Shown in pieces: positions 46,345 to 56,151 of a stretch of 64,000 nucleotides of DNA. The notes below the pieces were generated by a model that saw only the letters and a list, made by a program, of their open reading frames with translations, had not been told where the DNA came from and did not search any database. The translations under genes were made by a program, and so were the position numbers. The DNA comes from Streptomyces sp. Ncost-T10-10d. Lineage in GTDB: Bacteria > Actinomycetota > Actinomycetes > Streptomycetales > Streptomycetaceae. Within the stretch, counting starts at the first letter, position 1; every line of letters starts with the position of its first letter. The stretch spans positions 62,001 through 126,000 of the forward strand of contig NZ_FMDF01000218.1 in assembly GCF_900091955.1 (NCBI RefSeq). Direction: 5' to 3'.

Positions 46345-48299
46345 ATGATCTCCACACTGCTCGTCGCCAACCGGGGCGAGATCGCCTGCCGGATCTTCCG
46401 CACGTGCCGTGCGCTGGGCATCGCCACCGTCGCCGTGTACTCCGACGCGGACGCCGGCGCATTGCACGTACGGGAGGCGGACACCGCCGTACGGCTGCCG
46501 GGCGCCGCCCCGTCCGACACCTATCTGCGCGGCGACCTCGTCGTACGCGCCGCGCTCGCGGCGGGCGCCGACGCCGTCCATCCCGGGTACGGCTTCCTCT
46601 CCGAGAACGCCGGATTCGCCCGTGCCGTGCAGGACGCCGGTCTCGTCTGGGTGGGGCCGCCGGTCAAGGCCATCGAGCTGATGGCGTCCAAGACCCGCGC
46701 CAAGGAGCTGATGGCCGCCGCCGGGGTGCCGCTGCTCGCGCCCGTCGACACGGAGAAGGCCACCGCCGACGACCTTCCGCTGCTGCTGAAGGCGGCGGCG
46801 GGCGGCGGCGGACGCGGCATGCGGATCGTACGGGAACGCGCAGATCTGTCGGGCGAGTTGATAGCCGCCTCCGCCGAGGCCGCTGCCGCCTTCGGGGACG
46901 GCGAGGTCTTCGCGGAGCCGTACGTGGAGCACGGCCGGCACGTCGAGGTCCAGGTCATGGCCGACGAGCACGGCGGGGTCTGGGCGCTCGGCACCCGCGA
47001 CTGCTCGCTCCAGCGCCGCCACCAGAAGGTCATCGAGGAGGCCCCCGCACCCGGCCTCGACGACGCGCTGCGGACCCGGCTGCACGATGCCGCCGTGGCT
47101 GCGGCCCGCGCCGTCGGCTACCGGGGCGCGGGCACCGTCGAGTTCCTCCTCGCCGCCGACGGACGGCCGTACTTCCTGGAGATGAACACCCGCCTCCAGG
47201 TCGAACACCCCGTCACCGAAGCCGTCTTCGGGCTCGACCTCGTCGCCCTGCAACTGCGCATCGCGGAAGGCGAACCGCTGCCCGCCACCGCACCCCCCGA
47301 GCCGCACGGCCACGCCGTCGAGGCCCGGCTCTACGCCGAGGACCCCGCCCGCGACTGGCAGCCGCAGACCGGAGCACTGCACACGCTGGAAATGCCGGAC
47401 GAACCCGGACTGCGCCTCGACACCGGATACACCGGCGGCGACACCATCGGCGTGCACTACGACCCGATGCTCGCCAAGGTCATCGCCCACGCCCCCACCC
47501 GGGGCGAAGCCGTACGCCTCCTCGCCCGCGCCCTGGAACGCGCCCGCATCCACGGACCGGTCACCAACCGCGACCTGCTCGTACGGTCCCTGCGCCACCC
47601 CGACTTCCGCGCCGCCCGCCTCGACACCGGCTTCTACGACCGCCACCTGAACACCCTCACCCCCGCCCCGGACGAAGCGGACCACCGCACCGCCGCCCTG
47701 GCCGCCGCCCTCGCCGACGCCGCCACCCGGCACCACGGCCCCGGCCCGCCCGCTTCGGCGCCTGGCGCAACATCTCCTCGCAACCCCAGGTCAAGCGCTA
47801 CCGCACCGAACCCGACGGCACCGAACACCAGGCCGCCTACCGCACCACACGCACCGGCCCCGTCCCCGAAACGGGAGAACGGGTCATCGCCGCCCGCCCC
47901 GGTCACGTCACTCTCGAAGTCGGCTCCGTCACCCGCCACTTCGCCATCACCTTCCACCGGGACCAGGTGTACGTGGACACCGCCACCGGCTCGTACACCT
48001 TCACCGCCCTGCCCCGCTTCACCGACCCCACCGACCGGACCGCGCCCGGTTCCCTGCTCGCCCCCATGCCCGGCACCGTCGTCCGCATCGCGGACGGGCT
48101 CGGGGCCGGGGCGGCGGTCGAAGCCGGGCAGCCACTGATCTGGCTGGAGGCGATGAAGATGGAACACCGCATCCTCGCCCCCGCCTCCGGCACCCTCACC
48201 GCACTGCACGCCGCCCCCGGCCTCCAGGTGGAGGTCGGCGCCCTGCTCGCCGTCGTCGCCGAACCCGCAGACCCTGAGGAGGTGGGATCTAGTGTCTGA
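46345..48299 (+). pseudogene. Acyl-CoA carboxylase alpha subunit (biotin carboxylase + BCCP), frameshifted
   Basis: From ATG 46345 the frame is a full biotin carboxylase: LLVANRGEIACRIFRTCRAL, the ATP-grasp loop KAAAGGGGRGMRIV, HVEVQVMADEHG, LEMNTRLQVEHPVTE. At about 47740-47755 the frame breaks: RFGAWRNISSQPQVKRY and the biotin attachment site LEAMKMEH are in the -1 frame, ending at 48299. The unshifted frame ends at 48138 without a biotin domain. The net change is one missing (or two extra) base in a GC run. Unless this is a sequencing slip, the enzyme cannot carry biotin. Confidence 0.85.
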
Positions 48300-48306
48300 T
48301 TCTTGC

Positions 48307-48324
48307 CTACTCATGCGCAGAGTT
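48307..48324. repeat. Left end inverted motif of the IS607-type element
   Basis: CTACTCATGCGCAGAGTT, the near-complement of the right-end motif (50344-50362), differing in the central 3-4 bases. Confidence 0.75.
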
Positions 48325-48340
48325 GGGTACGGTGATCAGC

Positions 48341-48940
48341 ATGTACCGGATCAGCGAGTTCGCACAGCGTGTTGGTCGCTCCGCTTCCACTGTTCGAAGG
48401 TGGGAGCGCGAGGGCCGTATTGCGCCGCAACGCATATCCGGACAGCGGTACTTCACCGACGCCGACGTGCGGCAGGTGCTCCAGCCCGGATTCGACGAGT
48501 CAGCGCGTCAGACCATCGTGTACTGCCGGGTGTCCTCGCCTGGACAGAAGGACGACCTCGCCTCGCAGGTACAGGCGATGGAGGAGTTCTGCCGGGGTCG
48601 CGGTCTCGCTGTCGATCAGTGGATTCGCGAAATCGGCGGCGGCATGGACCTCCAGCGGAAGAAATTCCTCGCTCTGATGGATGCGATCGAGCGGGGCGAG
48701 GTCGGCACGTTGGTGATAGCGCACGAGGACCGGCTCGCCCGGTTCGGGTTCGACTACCTCGAACACGTCGCGCGGAAGAACGGCTGCACCATCGTGGTGG
48801 CGAACCAGGAATCGCTGTCCCCGCAAGAGGAGATGGTGCAGGACCTACTGACTGTCGTGCACACCTTCTCTCGTCGCCTGGGCGGGCTTCGACGCCACGA
48901 GATGACGCTCAAGGACGAGCTGGCCAGCGGTGGCCGGTGA
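48341..48940 (+). CDS. tnpA: IS607-family serine recombinase TnpA
   Basis: 199 residues. The N-terminal MerR-like HTH is RISEFAQRVGRSASTVRRWE REGRI...ISGQRYFTDADV. The serine-recombinase core follows, with TIVYCRVSSPGQKDDLASQ (catalytic Ser about 65), IREIGGGMDLQRKKFLALMD and LVIAHEDRLARFGFDYLEHV. This small, HTH-first form is the IS607 transposase, which makes the covalent DNA intermediate for transposition. ATG 48341 is the family start. Appears intact. Its stop overlaps the tnpB GTG (GTGA). Confidence 0.93.
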   Translation: MYRISEFAQRVGRSASTVRRWEREGRIAPQRISGQRYFTDADVRQVLQPGFDESARQTIVYCRVSSPGQKDDLASQVQAMEEFCRGRGLAVDQWIREIGGGMDLQRKKFLALMDAIERGEVGTLVIAHEDRLARFGFDYLEHVARKNGCTIVVANQESLSPQEEMVQDLLTVVHTFSRRLGGLRRHEMTLKDELASGGR

Positions 48941-50358
48941 AAGTCACCCGTATCGCTTACTCGAAGAACCTCAACCAGGGCAAGTACGCCCAGCTCGACG
49001 AGCAGGCGCGACGTCTCGGCGCGGTCCGCTCGCTCGTGTGGCGTCTGTACGGGTCGGTCAGCGGCCTCGCCTGGTCGGACCGGCAGATCCGCGATGTGTG
49101 GATCGCCGACGGCACCGCACAGACCTTCGACGTCCTGGCGAACGCGTGGAAAGAGACCGTGCGGGATACGGTCGCCGACATCACCGCGAACCGAGAGGCG
49201 GCCAAGGTCAAAGTCCGCAGGGCGATCAACCAGCGCACCAAGGACGAGGGCGAGCGGAAGCGCCTGTTCACCTCACTCAAGCGCGAGACGTGGGCCGACG
49301 ACCCATTCCTGGCTCGGCAGATGCGCCGGCACTGGAAGCACGGCCGGAACCGAACCCACAACCAGATCGTGGTCCGCGCCGACCAGTACAAGACCTTCAC
49401 CCTCACCGCGGGCGGAAACATCTGGCTCGCGGTACCCGGACTGGAGCGTCGGCAGCTTGTCCGTATCCCGCTGAACACCACGGTCGCTCCGACCGGCACC
49501 CTGCGGCTGGTCCTGCGCTCGGGCAGGGTCGAGGTGCACTACGCCATCGACGCGGAAGACATGAAGTCCTCCCAACGTCCCGTCGGCACCCGCACGATCG
49601 GCGTGGACAAGGGATATTCGGAAGTCCTCACCGATTCCGACGGCCGGCACCACGGCACGCAGCTGGGCGACCTGCTGACCTCCGAGTCCGATCACCGAAA
49701 GGTCAAGAACGCCCGGCGGGCCAAGATCCGTAGCGTCGCGGAGAAGGCTGAACAGCGCGGCGACCACGCCAAAGCTCGGCGTATCCGAGACAACAACCTC
49801 GGTGCCATCAAGCGTGACCGGCGCTCCGATTCTTGGCGTTGTCGCGTCCGTGATCTGACCTTCAAGGCCGTTCACGCTGTCGCCGACAAGGCGAGCCTGA
49901 TCGTGGCCGAAGATCTCACCAAGACTTTCGCCAGTGGCAAGAAGCTGGGGAAGAACACCAACCGGCGACTCGCCGCGTGGACCAAGGGTGTCACTGCGGA
50001 AGCGCTGGAAGCCGTGTCGGACCGCAGAGGTTCTGCGGTGCGGCTGGTCAATGCTGCCTACACGTCACAAGTCGTCCCCTTTACGAACATCCCTGGTGTC
50101 CGCAAAGGAGACCGGCTTCACTGCACCGAGTGCGGGGCCGTGTGGCAAGCCGACCATGCCGGAGCGGTCAACATCCTGCACAGAGAAGGTGATCCCGACA
50201 TCACCCTGTTCACCCCGCACACACGGGTCAAGCAGCTCTTGCAGGAACGTACCGACCGCCAACGGCCCCGACTGCCGATGGGCCAGGACTCCAGCACCAG
50301 GCATCTGTGCCGGTGCGGAGAGCGAAATATCCGACTGATGCTCAACTCTGAGCAATGA
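48937..50358 (+). CDS. tnpB: TnpB RNA-guided nuclease homologue of the IS607-type element
   Basis: 473 residues. RuvC catalytic residues are present: Asp in TIGVDKGYSEVL (~223), Glu in LIVAEDLTKTF (~325) and Asp in WQADHAGAVNI (~406). The zinc finger shows only one CxxC (HCTECGAVW); the first pair expected upstream is replaced by SQVVPFTNIPGVRKGDR. TnpB proteins are ancestors of Cas12 and use an RNA from the element's right end to cut DNA. The gene runs to the right end of the element, so that RNA would overlap its 3' part. GTG 48937 overlaps the tnpA stop. Confidence 0.9.
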   Translation: MKVTRIAYSKNLNQGKYAQLDEQARRLGAVRSLVWRLYGSVSGLAWSDRQIRDVWIADGTAQTFDVLANAWKETVRDTVADITANREAAKVKVRRAINQRTKDEGERKRLFTSLKRETWADDPFLARQMRRHWKHGRNRTHNQIVVRADQYKTFTLTAGGNIWLAVPGLERRQLVRIPLNTTVAPTGTLRLVLRSGRVEVHYAIDAEDMKSSQRPVGTRTIGVDKGYSEVLTDSDGRHHGTQLGDLLTSESDHRKVKNARRAKIRSVAEKAEQRGDHAKARRIRDNNLGAIKRDRRSDSWRCRVRDLTFKAVHAVADKASLIVAEDLTKTFASGKKLGKNTNRRLAAWTKGVTAEALEAVSDRRGSAVRLVNAAYTSQVVPFTNIPGVRKGDRLHCTECGAVWQADHAGAVNILHREGDPDITLFTPHTRVKQLLQERTDRQRPRLPMGQDSSTRHLCRCGERNIRLMLNSEQ

Positions 50359-54739: not shown

Positions 54740-54912
54740 GGCGGCTCCCTCGGTCGGCGGCTGTACGGAGGCCACAGTGGCCTGCCCCAAGATATTGGCG
54801 GGTTCCCACGACGCGGGGAAGCGTGACATCCGGCACAGCTTCCCGTTTCACCGGTGACGGATTGATGCCCCTCCTTGCCGGGCAGACTCGGCCGCTACGG
54901 CAGGATGACCCC

Positions 54913-55587
54913 GTGCCCACCGCAGACTCCCCCTCCGATTCCACCACCGATCCGGCCGCGATGCGCGAGCAGTACCGCTCCAAGGCCTTCACCGAGGACA
55001 CGCTGGCCGCCGACCCCATGCAGCAGTTCGCCCAGTGGTTCCGGCAGGTGGCCGTGGGCGGGTTGCTCCACGAGCCCAACGCCATGGTGGTCTCCACCGC
55101 CACCCCCGAGGGCCGGCCGTCCTCACGCACGGTGCTGTTGAAGAAGTACGACGAACGCGGCTTCGTCTTCTTCACCAACTACGAATCCCGCAAGGGCCGC
55201 GAACTGACCGCCAACCCGTACGTCTCGCTGCTCTTCCCCTGGCACCCGATGGCCCGCCAGGTCGTCGTCACCGGCACGGCGGCCCGTGTCGGCCGCGAAG
55301 AGACGGTCGCCTACTTCCGCACCCGCCCGCACGGCTCCCAGCTGGGCGCCTGGGCCAGTGCCCAGTCGACGGTGATCGGCTCCCGCGACGAGCTGATCGA
55401 ACGCTACGAGGAACTGGCTGCCCGCTACCCGGAGGGCGAGCATGTCCCCGCGCCCCCTCAGTGGGGCGGCTTCCGCGTGGTCCCCGACACGATCGAGTTC
55501 TGGCAGGGCCACGAGAACCGGCTGCACGACCGGCTGAGGTACGTACGCGAGGGCCAGAAGTGGCGCGTCGAGCGCCTGTGCCCGTAG
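54913..55587 (+). CDS. pdxH: Pyridoxamine/pyridoxine 5'-phosphate oxidase
   Basis: 224-residue FMN enzyme making pyridoxal 5'-phosphate. Family motifs: [71 protein letters not shown], and the C-terminal PLP-binding [16 protein letters not shown]...[11 protein letters not shown] 54913 ([10 protein letters not shown]) was chosen as the start nearest the conserved [10 protein letters not shown]; an upstream ATG frame to 54823 is less likely. The 173 bases to the divergent citrate synthase gene hold both promoters. Confidence 0.96.
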
Positions 55588-55610
55588 AAAACCCCTCCGG
55601 ACACGCAGAA

Positions 55611-55673
55611 ACCCGCAGGCTCTGGTCCCTCCTTGCGGAGGAGCCGGCCGGACTTACCGGCGAGCCTGCGGGT
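55611..55673. terminator. Three-way-junction stem-loop downstream of pdxH
   Basis: Outer perfect 12-bp stem ACCCGCAGGCTC (55611-55622) / GAGCCTGCGGGT (55662-55673). Inside are two hairpins: CCTCC/GGAGG (55628-55641) and GCCGG/CCGGC (55643-55661). It probably terminates pdxH and possibly transcripts from the other side. The branched form is more elaborate than an ordinary terminator, so a structured small RNA is an alternative. Confidence 0.6.
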
Positions 55674-55735
55674 CGGTGACTGCTTGGGTTTCGGCAGACA
55701 GCCTGCCGAGGTGCACTGTGTGCGACGACGGGCTG

Positions 55736-55774
55736 TCAGCCCGCAGCCACCTCACGAATCCGATAAGACTGCAC
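55736..55774 (-). pseudogene. Relic start of a MerR/TOBE-type regulator with complete ribosome site
   Basis: On the reverse strand AAAGGAGGTGATCC (55793-55780) precedes GTG 55774, which encodes MQSYRIREVAAG and then stops. The peptide looks like the opening of the MerR-like HTH in molybdate (TOBE) regulators (MQSY-I--AA-). In a shifted frame the sequence continues LTARRR...SAG, suggesting decay. It could instead be a short leader peptide. Confidence 0.45.
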
Positions 55775-55793
55775 TTTTCGGATCACCTCCTTT

Positions 55794-56151
55794 CATTCGC
55801 TGGCAGCAGCCTAAGAACCCTCGGAGAATGTCTCAACCTATTTATTCGGTGGCTTCTTGCTGGTAGCTGTACGCGTATCCGTCGGCACGCTGCAGCAGCC
55901 GCGATGGGTTGCCACCGGGGCCCGGGTGCTGCGGCTGCCGGAGCCGCTGGATCTCTCGTAGCGTCCCGGCGACTCGCGCGGTCCCGGACATGCCCCTTGA
56001 GCTGGGGTTGGTGCAATCCAACGCCTTTTCCTGGAACCGAAGTTGCTGAGACAGAACCAGGACACTCACAGGATCATTTCAGGATCGACCCGGCCCTAGT
56101 GTCATCGGTGTCAGCAGGAAACACCGCAACCGACAGCCGCTGGAGATCATG
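55794..56151. other. Remaining gap before the lipoprotein gene
   Basis: Apart from the reverse promoter at 55808-55836 I see no gene, strong hairpin or repeat here. The promoter of the lipoprotein gene must lie in its right part. Confidence 0.4.
55808..55836 (-). promoter_or_regulatory. Predicted promoter for the reverse-strand relic
   Basis: Reverse strand TTGAGA (55836-55831), 17-base spacer, TAGGCT (55813-55808): a good Streptomyces vegetative promoter, ending ~15 bases upstream of the ribosome site at 55793-55780. Confidence 0.5.

Follow-up and report, generated by a model that had tools for sequence, protein, structure and literature searches.

The closest described relative of the RNA analysed here is Ms_IGR-5 (Rfam RF02471), an actinobacterial sRNA whose model name and alignment carry no ORF annotation. 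In the structure line of RF02471 the 5' end, the GAGGUG of the Shine-Dalgarno (SD) element termed SD2 below and a CACC strand are all unpaired, there is no pseudoknot, and the GCUGCC that follows SD2 is paired with the element SD1, unlike in the model put forward here. The dual-function sRNAs SgrS, RNAIII and SR1 also possess a short ORF, with the ORF and the pairing region largely separate, while in the trp leader and rnTrpL it is the position of the ribosome on a short ORF that decides RNA pairing. The AUU starts of the infC type are known as near-cognate starts.

In the portions of the published reports that were available, S. lividans SLIV_16488 is described as validated by RNA-seq (PMC8079986), the Ms_IGR-5 homologue of S. 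avermitilis as a separate sRNA unit (PMC8780764) and M. smegmatis ncMSMEG15794c as overlapping IGR-5 (PMC10454040). Ribosome-protected reads on Ms_IGR-5 homologues have been reported for M. abscessus and M. smegmatis, and the available text of the same Ribo-seq study records reads on 6C and F6 as well and warns of footprints on non-coding RNAs (PMC4974804). Profiling of S. coelicolor found 31 of 230 candidate sRNAs to be ribosome-occupied, the names not being in the text consulted (PMC4895711); scr4389, named in a published list available in part, may or may not be this RNA. In the accessible parts of the literature searched, the original Ms_IGR-5 description aside, no report of an Ms_IGR-5 ORF or pseudoknot was found. 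Nor did these parts yield a function for Ms_IGR-5, or a functional report on the flanking M. tuberculosis genes, CC2171 or the S. coelicolor neighbours.

The RNA of the window (the window being the whole 64,000-nucleotide stretch of DNA that was analysed) resembles Ms_IGR-5 in its full-length match over the gathering score and in having the same strand, size and terminator-like stem. What the comparison with relatives suggests to be new relative to the Rfam structure is an SD-headed ORF, together with contacts of the ORF codons termed P1, P2 and the pseudoknot. Like SgrS, RNAIII and SR1 it would be a regulatory-type RNA carrying a short ORF, but here the putative long-range contacts are made by the ORF bases themselves, and the peptide is not retained. 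It resembles the infC type in that its deep lineages have near-cognate starts preceded by a strong SD, but the ORF is short and lies in an sRNA, and the starts are canonical in the 145 main-set loci among the matches listed. The Caulobacter sRNA CC2171 (RF01867) has GAAAGGAGGUGAUCC at its consensus 5' end, as has the window; with a score of 19.3 bits against a cut-off of 75 the RNA is not a member of that family by this test, and CC2171 may be an analogue or a relative from another phylum.

Strand and layout of the Ms_IGR-5 RNA

The match to RF02471 lies at 55603-55800 on the minus strand, spans model positions 1-184 of 184 and scores 83.1 bits (cut-off 45). It is the sole gathering-level Rfam match within the 64-kb window, and the genome to which the window belongs holds one copy. 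With our own covariance model, R1, the sRNA was found at 55589-55801 (minus strand) with 145.9 bits, a score obtained with the window sequence among the 55 used to build R1. The RNA appears to be free-standing. A putative -10 hexamer, TAGGCT, occurs at 55808-55813 on the minus strand, and a -35-like hexamer, TTGAGA, occurs 17 nt from it at 55831-55836; the latter is a reading by eye, as the sigma-70 scan did not report it. Transcription is predicted to start near 55801.

From its predicted 5' end the RNA (all coordinates minus strand) begins with GCGAAT (55795-55800), the 5' strand of P1, which is complementary to 55754-55759 and covaries in relatives. This is followed by SD1, GAAAGGAGGTGATCC (55780-55794), the complement of the 16S 3' tail, and by the short ORF VQSYRIREVAAG (55736-55774), running from GTG to TGA, whose start, frame and stop are conserved in relatives; the window reads GTG CAG TCT TAT CGG ATT CGT GAG GTG GCT GCG GGC TGA 3' of SD1. 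Codons 5-6 hold GGATT (55757-55761), the 5' strand of the pseudoknot, which in relatives covaries with the loop at 55650-55654, and codons 6-7 hold ATTCGT (55754-55759), assigned from the sequence and from relatives as the 3' strand of P1. SD2, GAGGTGGC, lies at 55746-55753, most of it within the 5' strand of P2, GGTGGCTGC (55743-55751), the 3' strand of which is GCAGTCACC (55675-55683). The terminator-like stem P4 has its 5' strand at 55662-55673 and its 3' strand at 55611-55622, followed by TTCTGCGTG, and would act as the terminator. Within it lie the P4a hairpin (55643-55661), whose loop TAAGTCCGG (55648-55656) contains the 3' strand of the pseudoknot, AGTCC (55650-55654), and a second hairpin, CTCCTCC/GGAGG (55625-55646), which was found by folding and is variable among relatives.

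An earlier note, made from the sequence alone, had described a dense run of stem-loops here, and these are present at the positions it gave, including the hairpins at 55691-55709 and 55729-55743. The three-way junction that it placed at 55611-55673 is P4 (55611-55622 with 55662-55673) enclosing two hairpins, and its imperfect palindrome at 55758-55783 is the SD/ORF hairpin. It had also taken GGATCACCTCCTTTC, at 55780-55794 on the plus strand, to be identical to the end of 16S rRNA; a same-genus genome agrees with this, having an rRNA gene, matched by the Rfam 16S model, that ends in the sequence concerned, the complement of its tail being AGAAAGGAGGTGATCC. No 16S rRNA gene was detectable in the draft assembly of the window's own genome (99.99% complete), so the single occurrence of the 15-mer GAAAGGAGGTGATCC in this 9.36-Mb draft says little.

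Two readings of this sequence had been offered, an RNA mimicking the anti-SD on the plus strand or a maximal ribosome site on the minus strand. On the minus strand the stretch 55590-55803 has a folding energy of -107.8 kcal/mol (z -4.9), which none of 200 shuffles matched, and the high score of the plus strand (z -4.1, 1 of 200 shuffles as good) is to be expected of the complement of a well-folding strand. The plus-strand mimic was rejected, with the family match, the promoter-like site, the terminator-like stem and the conserved ORF all lying on the minus strand. Given the RF02471 match on that strand, the plus-strand GGATCACCTCCTTTC is the complement of a maximal SD near the 5' end of the sRNA. 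The minus-strand half of the interpretation stood, while the Rfam sRNA, the ORF behind the SD and the use of ORF bases as strands of long-range helices had been missed.

The short ORF and its distribution

Relatives were collected as 30 loci found with the Rfam model (L001-L030), 40 weaker or "deep" loci identified by place (L031-L070) and at least 120 loci (L079-L198) found with a search pattern in which SD1, SD2 and the CACC strand are fixed and the start, stop, P1 and loop are left free. Named records in the last set include Streptomyces, Mycobacterium, Nocardia, Nocardioides, Rhodococcus, Lentzea, Saccharothrix, Pseudonocardia and Aeromicrobium. The ORF was parsed in 183 of 190 loci, leaving out L055, L067, L113, L136, L149, L161 and L197, of which L113, L136 and L197 show the ORF nevertheless. 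The first and third sets (the main sets) comprise 150 loci among the matches listed, 145 of them parsed, and are not all independent, as they include duplicates and close kin (L015 and L108 have the same ORF, and there are two M. gordonae and two N. brasiliensis).

Among the matches listed, all 145 parsed main-set loci have an ATG (68), TTG (53) or GTG (24) positioned 9-12 nt after GGAGG and a stop codon five codons past the GAG of SD2 (TAG 107, TGA 24, TAA 14, TGG never), although a stop was not required for parsing. The maximal ribosome site of the earlier note is in this way followed by a start codon and an ORF closed at one place throughout. The GAGGTG of SD2 is likewise found in 145 of 145, as the parsing rule demanded. 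Among these listed matches the ORF has 12 codons in 138 loci, 13 in five and 11 in two. Under a rule placing the start 8-14 nt after GGAGG and the stop within 24 nt of SD2, neither of the other frames gave an ORF in any of the 145 loci; longer ORFs in other frames do exist in some main-set loci. When the spacer was shuffled, the ORF was kept in 12% on average and 21% at most.

Of the 40 deep loci 38 could be parsed, and a closed frame was present in all 38. The start is canonical in 19 and near-cognate in the other 19 (CTG 9, ATC 4, ATT 4, ATA 1, ACG 1), namely L031, L033, L034, L036, L039, L041, L042, L045, L046, L048, L050, L052, L053, L054, L056-L059 and L066. These near-cognate codons stand behind a very strong SD. 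With near-cognates allowed, the mean for shuffled sequences is 21% and the maximum 42%, and the rule allows several positions, so the deep-locus ORFs are to be read as support and not as proof.

A set of 147 loci (among the matches listed), the selection of which required a stop codon, was thinned to the 55 loci of alignment A1, and R1 was built from A1 with P1, P2, P4 and P4a; its E-values are rough. R1 gave one match each in 117 of 396 actinomycetotal genomes, some of which had given sequences to R1, and the Rfam model one match each in 70 of the 396, with 35 over the cut-off; R1 thereby provides a more sensitive model for detecting Ms_IGR-5 RNAs. The Armatimonadetes record L161 first looked like a chance match, yet it matches R1, and in its phylum R1 matches five of 201 genomes, the starting genome included and two of the five being weak (near E 3e-4). 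By eye, all five have SD1, SD2 and the short ORF (starts ATG 2, TTG 1, ATT 2), P2 is paired at nine of nine positions in each, which the model favours, and P1 has five pairs in three and three pairs in two. In the phylum of a Clostridia record R1 matched none of 299 genomes. The Clostridia record itself, L149 of the pattern scan, is considered a chance match because it has no ORF and no R1 match.

The ORF is in another frame than SD2 in four actinomycetotal deep loci (L056, L061, L062 and L065) and also in the five loci of the phylum of L161. These frame-changed loci keep a start and a stop, the start being only ATT in L056, L203 and L205, and encode peptides such as IIDLETSGGGCG, LLQTSGGDCS, LIETSGGGCS and LQQDCGGGSS. 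In some lineages, then, the start and stop stay while the peptide and frame change. Taken together, the comparisons support a layout in which a near-maximal SD is followed by a start 7-13 nt beyond GGAGG and by a stop-terminated ORF of 10-15 codons, and give a strong comparative signal for this short ORF, which may be translated.

Proposed pairing of the ORF codons

In A1, P1 (the 5' end with the codons before SD2) was paired in 95.7% of cells, with double changes in three of its four pairs, P2 (SD2 with GCAGYCACC) in 99.6% and P4 in 96.7%, both with covariation, the P4a stem reaching only 58.5%. Covariation over the whole structure scored 0.277 against 0.148 for shuffled alignments (0 of 500 as high), with versions of the structure slid along the alignment at 0.103 or less; these shuffles do not correct for kinship. 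Covariance with related species, the check that the earlier note had itself proposed, is thus found.

For the pseudoknot, the loop was compared with the ORF segment in 176 parsed loci of 188, with two rows misplaced (L029 and L126). An unsupervised covariation scan of 144 aligned sequences, among the matches listed, ranked ORF GGA[C/U] with loop [G/A]UCC fifth among the scored column pairs, ranks 1-4 being taken by pairs of P4. The variable pair in these 144 listed sequences is C-G in 116, U-A in 24, U-G in three and a mismatch in one; the window and its near relatives L098 and L128 have GGAU facing GUCC, a U-G pair. In A1 99.5% of cells were paired for four pairs and 74.1% for the fifth. The covariation score was 0.213 against 0.093 shuffled (0 of 500 as high), while two coarser measures for the pseudoknot alone were unremarkable, with 283 of 500 shuffles as high for double-change pairs and 125 of 500 for pair types.

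On a rough tree built from the same RNA without the tested columns, six of the eight ORF-side changes at the variable pair share a branch with a loop change. The corresponding figures are 3 of 10, 1 of 4 and 5 of 19 for pairs of P1. The fifth pseudoknot pair gives 0-8 of 20-21, the value varying with the column chosen.

Pairing of SD1 with the GGAY of the ORF was considered as the main contact. It is paired in 96.8% of cells, yet seven of 55 sequences are unpaired at the variable pair, as against none of 54 for the pseudoknot, and it is kept only as an alternative contact. In the window P1 overlaps the pseudoknot, with at most three P1 pairs (one of them G-U) fitting beside it; the contacts there must therefore be weaker or alternate.

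The deep loci lie outside the 144-sequence alignment, and a P1 helix of at least four pairs was found in 38 of 38 (mean 5.00), against a mean of 3.68 and a highest value of 4.13 with partners swapped, the sequences having been inspected before this test. In the 30 Rfam-model loci P2 was paired at nine of nine positions in 26, at eight in one and at seven in three; its 3' strand belonged to the search pattern of the third set. Across the two Rfam-model sets (68 parsed loci), gapless pairing covered nine positions in 33 loci, eight in 20, seven in 14 and six in one, where shuffled segments average 7.6 of 9. A gapless nine-base P2 helix is well supported by these comparisons in the main sets, and P2 of the deep loci may need a bulge.

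Eleven atypical loci were folded. In L030, L040, L043 and L069 the loop can pair with 5-6 bases of the ORF segment, in L028 and L064 the complement is ambiguous, and in the folds of L112 and four frame-shifted loci no fitting loop complement was present at the terminator-like hairpin. The ORFs of L040 and L043 have CGACC in place of GGAC, complementary over five bases to the hairpin loop CTGGTCGA, which by its sequence is a putative exchange of the whole pseudoknot. Overall, the comparative data support long-range contacts for which the ORF supplies one of the two strands: P1, P2 and, for the majority of loci examined, the pseudoknot.

A further stretch, GAAUCCMA (A1 columns about 148-156), just before the 3' strand of P2, is found repeatedly among relatives, and the counted structure leaves it unpaired. 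Its counterpart in the window is GAAACCCAA at 55684-55694, and it resembles the 3' half of a tRNA T-arm. ARAGORN identified no tmRNA (tRNA-like domain with tag ORF) within the window.

Candidate functions and genomic context

We put at about even the chance that this is a free-standing Ms_IGR-5 small RNA that doubles as a very small mRNA and is opened by ribosomes. The competing reading that comes nearest, which we nevertheless regard as unlikely, is that of a ribosome decoy, in which the extreme SD binds 30S or 70S at the fold and buffers free ribosomes, with the ORF incidental to an SD and a start. This agrees with the 15-nt match of the window's SD1 to the complement of 16S and with the invariance of GGAGGTG.T in A1. 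The edge of an initiation complex lies near base 14 from the start codon, and the pseudoknot begins at about that base. However, a decoy has no need of a stop conserved at one position or of a frame that is maintained, and in relatives the extended SD1 match is frequently interrupted (GGTGG, GGTGT).

Somewhat less credible again is a plain trans-acting sRNA, in which the ORF would be a by-product of constraints on the RNA. Pairing alone could demand the near invariance of the second half of the ORF as RNA. Against this reading stand a stop position held only by TAG, TGA or TAA, and start codons that vary only among starts, in the 145 main-set loci among the matches listed. ORF lengths, moreover, differ by whole codons (L112, L114, L127 and L189).

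Leader-peptide attenuators include a short ORF, alternative pairing and a terminator-like stem, yet we consider it very improbable that the RNA controls a downstream gene through its terminator. The likeness to the trp leader and rnTrpL is that here too RNA pairing would depend on where the ribosome stands on a short ORF; the difference is that no antiterminator sharing a strand with the terminator was noticed in the folds and that no conserved downstream gene, of the kind an attenuator would regulate, was common to 12 loci by Pfam on selected ORFs (10 gave a family). The available text on the S. avermitilis homologue also describes a separate sRNA unit (PMC8780764). That the peptide of 10-15 residues is itself the product is about as improbable, for although EV[AT] is encoded in 145 of 145 and a preceding [RC] in 130 of 145 parsed main-set loci among the matches listed, those bases are also constrained by RNA pairing and, in other lineages, belong to another reading frame.

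For the small RNA doubling as an mRNA, the following order of events is proposed. A 30S subunit would load in the loop closed by P1, which would display SD1 and the start codon, and the elongating ribosome would then strip first the pseudoknot, next P1 and finally P2, halting just past SD2. The RNA would be folded when untranslated and open when translated, and with two such states it would respond to initiation. The peptide would be a by-product, because lineages differ both in its sequence and in the frame it takes relative to SD2, and as it is not kept, translation itself would be the likely event that matters. As a guess, the two states could be read through the freed CACC strand and the conserved stretch preceding it, by base-pairing or protein binding.

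More tentatively, and with less confidence than in the mRNA role, we suggest a two-phylum class of RNAs whose fold rests on the codons of an ORF, 10-15 codons long and behind an extreme SD, and which are switched by translation and not by the peptide, acting in trans as sensors of ribosome occupancy. If so, the near-cognate starts of deep lineages would make such a sensor sensitive to start-codon discrimination (IF3). If the ORF is translated, a widespread "non-coding" RNA of Streptomyces, Nocardia and mycobacteria would be one in which fold and translation are mutually exclusive, and stop-codon and compensatory mutants would give a testable handle on what the RNA senses.

In the window the RNA is oriented towards the 3' end of a convergent pdxH-like pyridoxamine phosphate oxidase gene outside it (54823-55587, plus strand; PF01243, PF10590), with citrate synthase beyond. 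Among the 12 loci a convergent pdxH-like gene is downstream in L001, L018 and L027, a convergent THAP4 heme-binding gene in L007, L010, L011 and L014, DUF4232 and an aldolase in L025, an acetyltransferase in L016 and a convergent phosphoglycerate dehydrogenase in L030, with no downstream family identified by Pfam on selected ORFs in L022 and L028. The first-pass calls of neighbouring ORFs were crude, many being in wrong frames. Elsewhere in the window, a long ORF at 48292-50358 (plus strand) possesses a C-terminal Cas12f1-like TNB domain (PF07282, 2.9e-9, residues 570-628) and is probably a TnpB-type transposon gene whose start has been called too far upstream.
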